DNA of 64,000 nt from the NCBI RefSeq assembly GCF_048128805.1, contig NC_135997.1:3514470-3578469 (forward strand), given 5' to 3'. Both the position numbers and the translations under genes were made by a program. Numbering within the stretch: the stretch's first letter is position 1; every line of letters begins with the position of its first letter. Positions 30,201 to 33,200 of this stretch are shown here, piece after piece. Under the pieces are notes generated by a model. The model did no database searches. It was not told the origin of the DNA and saw nothing but the letters and a program-made list of their open reading frames with translations. Source of the DNA: Centroberyx gerrardi (taxonomy: Eukaryota > Chordata > Actinopteri > Beryciformes > Berycidae).

Positions 30201-33200
30201 GCAAGATCAGAGAGAAGGTGGACCGGGCTGTAGAGGCTGCAGAGAAGGCTGCAGACATCGCCAAGCAGAAAGCTGAGATTGCCATGTCTAGGTAAGAAAG
30301 TAAGAAGTAGTGGATGATGTGGAGAGGCACATTTGGGTTCTGGATAGTTGGTTTCAGCGTCTGGAATCAACTTTCACATGATGCAATGTCTTTGAAAATA
30401 GGCTTTACTTCAGAAAATCAAACATATGCATAATGACATTGGCTGTTTGTAAGTGCTGTTCTGTGTCATGGTTCAGAGTCAGAAGTGAGCCAGGTGTGAC
30501 CAAGTCAACTTCATCCAAGTCCCAAGTCAGTCTCAAGTCTTGAGGCACAAGTCTCAAGTCAAGTCCCAAGTCAAAGTGTAGATTACCAAGTCAAGTCCAT
30601 GTTATTAATGTTAAGTCCCAAGTCTGAATGTAGAACAGCAAGTCAAGTCAGAACAAATCAAGAGTCCAGTATCAATTTAATATCTTAAAGAAAACTATCT
30701 AGGACTTTTCAATGCTATATGGTTTTAATAGGATACAAACTTGGTAAGAGCATCATGAGTTTGATTTCTATAACCAGTTTCAACTTCAATAAATTCAATC
30801 ATTCCATACAAATTCAGAAAACAATTTAAATTCAGTCGTCTGCTGGAACAAATCTCATCACTTTCAATCCAAGTAATTTACACAAACACAAGATCTCAAG
30901 TCAAGACTTTAGAAACCTTTTCAAGTCATCAAAGTACAAGTCAAAGTCGAGTCCCAAGTCAGCAGAACCCAAGTCAAGTCTCAAGTCTTCTCTTCATGCA
31001 GCAAATAAAATTGTGACTTGAGTCTGAGTCTCGAGTCCCAACCTCTGGCATAGTGTATAGCAATCTTGGATCAAGTGAGGCCAGACAAAGCACAACTATT
31101 CACCAAACGTACATAATGAATGATAACCTTTATGATGAAGAGTTTGCAGCCTGTTTGACTGCTGTGTTTCTACCTGTCCGTTCAGGATGAGCCACGCCCG
31201 TGGGAAGGCGGAGGCAGCGGAAGGCGTGGCGCAGAAGGCCATGGAAGAGTGTCGACTGGCCCGGATCGCTGCCAAGGAGCTCTCTCCCTCCTTCCACATC
31301 TACGGGAATGGTGAGTTGACAACAGGAGAAGAACTGTATAGTGTAATACTAGTCTAAATTTCAGCATTCACCTATTATTCTTGTATCATATGACAGTTCA
31401 GTTGGTATTATATTGAGAATATTCACTACTGAACGAGAGAAGTTTGTTCTTATCTGTGATATGATATAGAAGTATCTCATTTTCAGGATAAATTGAATTC
31501 TATACTAGGGTTTGACCGATATGGATTTTTGAAGGCCCATACCGACAAATTTGACGATTTCCATTCCAGAAAATGACAAGTATTCAGTATTTCCTCTAGT
31601 ATTTCCTTTAGAATATACATATGTGAAAATTAAAAGATATAACTCTCCAATACAAAAGTGTTACCTTTATACTAAAGGTCATCTGCTGTAATGCAGTGTC
31701 TGTTATGCTTATGATAAGGAAATTCAAGTAGAATCAGCTTACATTCAAAAATACTGTATATTTGGCAGAAGTACTTAAGTATTAGGCTTTCATTAAAAAG
31801 TCATTACTAAATCAAAAGGCAACACATTTTGAAAATGATGGAACTGTACTCATTACCTTCATTTCAAATAAATAAAAGAATGTACAAGTACTGTGTCTAC
31901 TTGAACATTTACAGCATTGAACAGTTACTTGAACATTTAATATGCTGTGATGAGTAATTCCATACATATTACCCATGTATTTCTGCTCTCACAATAAACC
32001 CCAAACTACACAGAATAAGCCTTTAAGAATTCAAGAATTCAAGTGTGTTGACTTCCTTAATCCTCTCTAAAACAGACTTAAGCCAACTGTGATTGTCTTC
32101 CCAAGATTCAGACTGTAGCGTCCTCACTCTTCTTCTTCTGTGCCCCTGCATGCTAACAACACTGCAACACGCAGCGTATGTCTGATGTACTTGCTGTGGA
32201 TTGGTGCCAAGTCACTTCACTGGTGCTATTCTCCAACTGTGTTCCTAGGGCTCGAATGTCAGCGGCCCAAGCACCAGGACGCCAAGGACAAAGACCATGA
32301 GGTCATCTCCACGGGAACAGACAGTCCGGAGCTGTGCACTCCGGACACCACGCCGCCTGTAATAACACCTGATCTCAGCCCCGTGCTGAGCGTCCCCGCC
32401 TCGCCCCCCCGCAGCCCGCCCAAGCACGCCCATCGTCCCAGAAATGCTTGCTTCATGCGCCAGAGTGCCGTGGATGACCAGGGCGGGGCTGAGATCCAGG
32501 TGCTGGTGGAGGGGCGGGGCATAGATCTGCCTAGGGGCGGGGCTAACACTTGGACAGATGACATGTATCCAGATCGAGGAGGCAGCAGCCGCTCCACCAC
32601 ACCTTCCCTCCTGGAGGAGCAAGAGGGCCAAATTAACGGCCACGAGCAAGCCCCTTTGTCCAATCACAAACCACGGGAGAAATCCTTGTCCAATCACAAG
32701 TCCCGGGAGCACTCTTCCTCCTACAGAGCCTGGGAGCACTCCTTGTCCAACCAAAAGCCCTCCAAGCATGCCTCTTCCAATCACAAGTCGAGGGAGTACT
32801 CCTCCTCCAATCACAAAACATGGGATCATTCTTCCACCAATCACAAGGCCTGCGAGCATGCCTCTTCCAATTACAAGCCGCAGGTGCACATTTTATCTAA
32901 TCACAAGGCCTTGGAGCATAACATGTCCAATCACAAGACTTCTGAGCATGCTTCTTCCAATCACAAGTCCCAAGATTATATCTCCTCTAATCACAATGCA
33001 AAGGACCACGTCTCTTCTAGCTACAACCCTCGAGAGCATGTCTACTCCAACCACCATCCAAAGCAGCACATGCCCTCCAACCACAAGCTTAGCGAGCATG
33101 CTTTGGTCGACCAAAGGCTTGACGGCCTCACCGGGGGCTGGACTGCTGAAAGCACCCTTAGGTGGAGCCCCGCCCACTCGCGCCTCACGGAGCAGGACGA

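Follow-up and report, generated by a model that had tools for sequence, protein, structure and literature searches.

Junctophilin gene in the window

The window, i.e., the whole stretch of 64,000 nucleotides of Centroberyx gerrardi DNA that was analysed (NC_135997.1, positions 3,514,470 to 3,578,469), contains on its + strand a complete junctophilin gene with five coding exons and a product of 868 residues, all four introns being of the GT-AG type. The coding part of exon 1 (21230..21611, +) starts with ATG, ends at a GT donor, and encodes MORN repeats, with a Pfam MORN match of 3.1e-22 in frame 21197-21685. Exon 2 (29511..30291, +), delimited by splice sites, contains further MORN repeats on both sides of a joining region as well as the start of the helix. 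It is supported by a Pfam MORN match of 5.8e-16, and its top matches in PDB are junctophilin-1 and junctophilin-2 (E 5.4e-58 for junctophilin-1). Exon 3 (31186..31310, +), covering the end of the alpha-helical region, and exon 5 (34307..34387, +), encoding the C-terminal membrane anchor and the stop, are both placed according to the open frame and splice sites. Exon 4 (32249..33486, +) represents the divergent region; it lies within ORF 32119-33510 between a CCTAG acceptor and a GTGAGT donor, and taken alone it has no match in Pfam. Thus, with MORN matches in exons 1 and 2, both MORN repeat groups of a junctophilin are present, and the divergent region is followed by what should be the C-terminal ER membrane anchor, its topology being predicted from the sequence.

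Regarding the subtype, the exon 2 tree (six rows, window positions 29513-30289, a provisional human JPH3 sequence, no JPH4) groups the window gene with a second copy of the same genome, located on contig C4, and with human JPH3 at 100/100, apart from three other junctophilins of the genome. The end branches of these 3 sequences have lengths of 0.30 (window), 0.041 (C4), and 0.076 (human JPH3). Exon 2 of the window evolves much faster than exon 2 of C4, and the copy with the expanded array is the fast one. The window gene is therefore referred to below as jph3: it appears to be junctophilin-3-type, a gene of membrane junctions in nerve cells, although the JPH3 label leans on the provisional human sequence. 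The first-pass annotation had named the same host for the array, and the MORN matches in Pfam, the junctophilin matches in PDB, and the grouping of exon 2 with the human sequence all agree with it.

Several other features lie outside jph3. Upstream of the gene, pieces of a Sir2-family gene are found at 3130-4466 on the - strand, with 4086-4466 well over the Pfam cut-off and 3130-3477 just under it. Two tandem arrays are located at 44572-44659 (period 29, 3.0 copies, 93% matches) and 59491-59676 (period 14, 13.2 copies, 92% matches).

Decapeptide array in exon 4

Exon 4 contains an array of 15 decapeptide units at 32659..33105 (+), which corresponds to residues 567-715 and is supported by the unit table, TRF, and the in-frame translation. 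All 15 units lie within the exon, in the frame that continues to the C-terminal membrane anchor. The array takes 447 nt and encodes 149 residues, with 14 units of 30 nt and a single unit of 27 nt, or 9 codons (unit 3, 32719..32745, +). Unit 2 occupies 32689..32718 (+), and units 4-15, twelve regular 30-nt units, occupy 32746..33105 (+). The pattern of a unit is SNHK-x-x-E-H-x-S, and according to the unit table the coordinates, count, motif, and exon given in the first-pass annotation are all right.

The mean pairwise identity among the 15 units is 0.625 for DNA and 0.455 for protein. In terms of composition, the array is dominated by Ser (22.8%), His (16.1%), Asn (10.7%), and Lys (10.1%), with no Gly or Phe and only 2 Trp in 149 residues. 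The longest exact repeat within the array is 17 nt, so a mis-assembled copy number is unlikely as far as the sequence alone can tell. As for splicing, the lone GTRAG site of exon 4 (33319, CCG|GTAAGG) lies 3' of the array, and thus no ordinary donor would remove the array by itself. If the donor at 33319 were used, an in-frame loss of 168 nt would follow, and with it most of the putative counterpart of the RyR1-binding segment described below (over half of its length).

TRF catches only the better-kept middle of the array, reporting 9.4 copies of period 30 at 32689-32967 with a score of 131; at period 90 the score is 216, for 32747-32967. Among the eight closest unit pairs, three have lag 3 (2-5, 4-7, and 7-10), one has lag 6 (4-10), and two have lag 4 (2-6 and 6-10). 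The mean unit identity is 0.656 at both lag 3 and lag 6, which is equalled by 202 and 355 of 5000 shuffles of unit order, respectively, while identity at lags 1, 2, 4, and 5 is not unusual (621 to 3344 of 5000 shuffles). These values hint that the array may have grown in part by three-unit (90-bp) blocks; the lag evidence is weak, however, and the lag-4 pairs speak against it. Expansion by unequal exchange or slippage seems likely, perhaps partly in 90-bp blocks. Identity does not exceed 0.87 even for the two most similar units, which suggests that recent unit turnover is absent.

Second jph3 copy and age of the array

A search of the 779 Mb assembly with exon 2 revealed five junctophilin loci, on C1 (the window), C22, C13, C14, and C4 (the last one in two pieces), and an additional short weak match on C2. 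We infer from the sequences that these comprise a close pair of JPH1-like copies, two copies of JPH3 type, and another one that is more divergent. The JPH3-type gene on C4 occupies approximately 27.013-27.037 Mb on the - strand. Its exon 3 shows 65% identity to that of the window over 40 residues, and at the end of exon 5 the last 24 of 24 residues are identical between the copies. Exon 1 was not found within the 40 kb examined on C4. Exon 2 of this copy contains an intron, roughly 3.5 kb long, that is absent from exon 2 of the window, and STISLGDADAELAVADDD of C4 corresponds in the window copy to a shorter stretch of different sequence.

Exon 4 of C4 is open and contains two units at the same place as the window array. 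The first of these seed units shares 24 identical bases with unit 2 of the window (32689-32712). This is the longest word common to the two copies in exons 2-5, to which the comparison was confined (the longest in exon 2 is 22), and in all 20 of 20 base shuffles of exon 4 the longest shared word is 9-14. Unit 3 of the window may correspond in position to the second seed unit, as judged by eye only, since its plain identity is 0.41 to that unit vs 0.70 to the first. Because C4 carries two units at the matching place, the window array is not a wholly new repeat; together with the 24-nt word, this points to a short seed that is older than the split of the copies and was expanded in one of them. 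Thus, the lineage-specific expansion proposed initially stands in that the array is limited to one of two copies (15 vs 2 units), but not as a wholly new repeat.

The claim that human JPH3 lacks such a repeat also stands in part: the human sequence presumably contains no array, but its NPKPRER aligns with NHKPREK of window unit 1 and is possibly a single relic unit, which we take as a lead only. The presumed lack of an array in human JPH3 also speaks against the reverse course of events, in which an old array contracted in C4 rather than expanded in the window copy.

The proportion of silent differences (pS) between units is 0.60, in comparison with 0.53, 0.59, 0.63, and 0.78 between the copies in exons 2, 3, 4, and 5, respectively (exon 5 having 26 codons). 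The resemblance of these values suggests that the array is old. However, since all of them are high and third-position G+C differs between the window and C4 copies, the conclusion is limited to old units with no recent turnover. An old array predicts that related fish families have it as well.

Considering their location on separate contigs and the high silent divergence between them, the two copies may come from the teleost genome duplication. The one neighbour compared, the ORF at 60438-61115 (-), is single-copy in the genome and gives no synteny support for ohnologs. The seed pattern [SN]N[HP]K is found in 0 of 3 other junctophilin loci (forward frames of 20 kb each at C22, C14, and C13), where inspection by eye identified the divergent exon for C14 and C13, though not for C22. 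Beyond this genome, none of the 22 pattern matches of exon 2 to viral contigs was confirmed, nor any of the pattern matches of the array to bacterial and archaeal genome contigs (13) or viral contigs (7), collections that have no bearing on other fishes.

Signs of coding constraint on the units

Identity across units at codon positions 1, 2, and 3 is 0.63, 0.76, and 0.48, respectively. In the junctophilin frame pN/pS across units is 0.53, a value not reached in any of 500 neutral star simulations. For a set of 11 regular units the ratio equals 0.51 in the junctophilin frame; the two remaining sense frames give 1.09 and 1.55, and the antisense frames 1.00, 0.48, and 1.37. The antisense frame with 0.48 has its wobble position in common with the sense junctophilin frame, and in its register the ORF list contains no frame of at least 60 aa within the array. 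Values at or below the observed one arise in 8 (kappa 2) and 17 (kappa 4) of 400 neutral trees, and with stops purged in 3 and 15 of 400; this test of constraint is moderate, some of the nulls being only modestly beaten. The first-pass annotation had proposed estimating dN/dS between units, and codon maximum likelihood yields an omega of 0.40 vs 1 (LRT p 0.0023; log-likelihood −355.13 vs −359.76, best of six kappa values with a separate tree search for each, under a small-sample warning from IQ-TREE). The frame stays open in only 49 of 5000 star simulations but in 53 and 62 of 400 neutral trees, so the open frame by itself is weak evidence of constraint. Every one of these tests rests on 15 short units from one genome.

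At the level of residues, the commonest amino acid is kept at positions 1, 2, 3, 4, and 8 in 14/15, 13/14, 11/15, 11/15, and 12/15 of the units, respectively. E or D occupies position 7 in 12/15 and Ser position 10 in 8/15, while positions 5, 6, and 9 vary. Overall, the units show signs of having been held for long under constraint at the protein level. The initial reading of the unit differences as long retention under frame constraint is in line with the omega and pN/pS values and the high silent divergence.

The most serious alternative is that one copy lost constraint after duplication and a minisatellite-like array drifted to 15 units in a disordered region, with no role of its own, selection merely purging stops and frameshifts. 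The long end branch of the window copy fits such a course, and given this fast evolution some of the array may simply be tolerated, with no selection for it. The same is true for the modest margin over the stop-purged trees. Low-complexity stretches also occur in the likely divergent exon of the C14 copy (presumably jph2-type), which suggests that the divergent region may be repeat-prone across the family. In that exon they read PAPAPA, ASKAASKAASKA, and RPNSRPNSRP. On the other hand, drift without a role is opposed by the omega estimate, by the residues at positions 1, 2, 3, 4, 7, and 8 being kept over high silent divergence, and by the lack of any sign of recent unit turnover. It is thus considered rather unlikely, though still the strongest of the competing explanations.

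Position in the linker and possible spacer function

In mammals, the alpha-helical domain is required for binding of the CaV2.1 II-III loop (PMC12017855), and residues 653-680 of human JPH3 are reported to bind the cytoplasmic domain of RyR1 (PMC8046434). According to the latter source, when JPH3 carries the JPH4 divergent domain instead of its own, neither RyR1 nor RyR2 accumulates any longer, and recruitment of RyR3 is lower. A putative counterpart of the RyR1-binding segment, 24 residues starting from residue 777, is located at 33289..33360 (+). It was placed by an approximate alignment with human 653-680, to which it is weakly alike; its borders were set by eye, and its start in MAFFT is two columns off. 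The array sits between the alpha-helix and this putative segment. With the segment start set by eye, the distance from the end of the helix is 358 residues in the window copy, 259 in C4, and 235 in the provisional human sequence. The expansion thus makes the cytosolic region that joins the MORN/helix part to the ER anchor longer, as was stated in the first-pass annotation.

The array is probably a disordered linker. Its charge-hydropathy value of 0.311 vs a boundary of 0.433 is on the disordered side, and single-sequence AF2 for exon 4, a weak and poor model, has a mean pLDDT of 44 and no secondary structure in the array. Polymer constants of 0.36 nm per residue and 0.55 N^0.588 were used for its dimensions. 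The contour of the C4 linker is then about 93 nm, and the estimated rms end-to-end distance grows from 14.4 nm (C4) to 17.5 nm (window), a gain of about 3 nm. In a heart muscle model, calcium-spark fidelity is reported to be lost beyond 15 nm (PMC8934682). Since the linker is already far longer than the gap even in the short copy and the rms gain is this small, a wider membrane gap is unlikely. The altered gap width suggested at first was accordingly rejected as the main effect on these polymer estimates.

We regard as fairly probable the reading in which an old two-unit seed was expanded in one jph3 copy and the array, held by coding constraint, works as a flexible spacer. The seed of the short copy would have grown, in one copy, into a cytosolic linker rich in Ser, His, Asn, and Lys. 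Such a linker would provide more reach and bulk for the RyR-binding end relative to the plasma-membrane end, and its regular His/Tyr positions may add weak self-association.

A stronger version of the last point, which is compatible with the spacer role, is that a His or Tyr ring at every fifth residue provides multivalent, pH- or zinc-sensitive self-association clustering JPH3. Ring positions 3 and 8 are occupied by His in 23/30 and by Tyr in 5/30 cases, together 28/30, and such even spacing is what most favours self-association or a pH/metal role. As a precedent, squid-beak repeats phase-separate via His deprotonation and His-Tyr contacts (PMC6884462). Tyr accounts for 5 of 7 non-His ring residues vs approximately 1 in 5 expected by our own reckoning with kappa 2 (binomial 0.0047), but this test was picked post hoc and the units are not independent. 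Moreover, the array contains no Gly, unlike the squid repeats with their GHGLY motif, and other aromatic residues are few (the two Trp, no Phe).

Regularly spaced His is also found elsewhere in the genome. Besides the window and the C4 copy, the genome search reported 27 weak matches (29 in all), and 18 loci of these 27 were examined (L003-L020, some overlapping). Although 17 of the 18 align to the array at E below 1, as tandem sequences in which His or Tyr recurs at regular intervals, [ST]NH[KR] occurs in 0 of 18, and they were taken as unrelated. Examples (L011, L013, and L015 among them) include TRHAPTRYIS and DHLLT, which lack the SNHK motif. Such spacing can therefore arise in unrelated repeats, which counts against the ring pattern as a sign of function. 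Clustering of JPH3 through the ring is thus judged improbable. Slightly more doubtful still is its furthest extension, according to which the array made one fish JPH3 a self-associating tether, i.e., a pH- or zinc-tuned cluster-forming linker that would space CaV channels from ryanodine receptors and give the two copies differing junction behaviour.

Finally, although other frames are also open across the array or parts of it, it is very improbable that the array is absent from the JPH3 protein, whether through removal by splicing, wrong annotation, faulty assembly, or membership of an antisense gene, given the short exact repeats, the position of the single GTRAG site, the pN/pS ratios of the other sense frames, the shared wobble position and missing long frame of the one low antisense ratio, and the same motif encoded in the same exon of C4.

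Comparison with known systems

Coding repeat growth in disordered regions is a known kind of change. For this particular array, no report was found among the titles and abstract starts listed from open-licence papers. The new part is its origin from a short seed in one copy: the array is real, old, copy-specific, and apparently constrained, while its function would be the spacer role proposed above. With the short and the 15-unit versions both present in one genome, the effects of linker length and composition could be followed at ER-plasma membrane junctions as a natural experiment. It is through its divergent region that JPH3 selects the ryanodine receptors it recruits (PMC8046434). The presence of two jph3-type genes is also contrary to the belief, relayed in a review, that teleosts lost one JPH3 copy (PMC8934682).

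Mammalian JPH3 shares with the window copy the flanking blocks, the membrane anchor, and the order in which the parts follow each other. It differs in presumably having no array and in its length, which is given as 748 residues (PMC8934682) vs 868 here. In the Drosophila junctophilin of 1054 aa the divergent region is also lengthened in a lineage-specific way, a likeness by description in the same review rather than by sequence (PMC8934682). As for the CTG repeat of Huntington disease-like 2, it belongs to the same gene, but it is a triplet of varying number in the alternative exon 2A, in contrast to the decapeptides in exon 4 reported here (PMC8934682).

Outside the family, similarity of composition and similarity of history lead to different systems. 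Squid-beak repeat proteins are extracellular and Gly-rich. They consist of Gly-containing His/Tyr modules, and the array, which has no Gly, does not belong to this type. They are likewise described as disordered, modular, and His-rich with Tyr (PMC6884462).

With respect to history, the closest parallels are teleost duplicates of which only one has grown. Extended synaptotagmins, like junctophilins, are ER-plasma membrane tethers. Teleost esyt1b is one of two copies that has grown, to 9 C2 domains vs 5, though by internal duplication of folded domains rather than as a short tandem array (PMC3484663). In teleost Piccolo b (pclob), the closest of these cases, likewise, one of two neuronal duplicates was amplified, with 8-16 copies vs 15 units here, and its partner is short (PMC3484663). 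The pattern of one copy amplified and the other short is thus found in jph3 too (15 vs 2), whereas the repeated unit is not a whole exon. In pclob it is a whole zinc-finger exon, amplified more than once and in several species (PMC3484663), while here it is a decapeptide within one exon, probably disordered and seen in one genome. The author of the pclob study, writing in 2012, was unaware of another extensive case (PMC3484663), and jph3 of C. gerrardi may be another instance, after pclob, of strong repeat growth confined to one duplicate.
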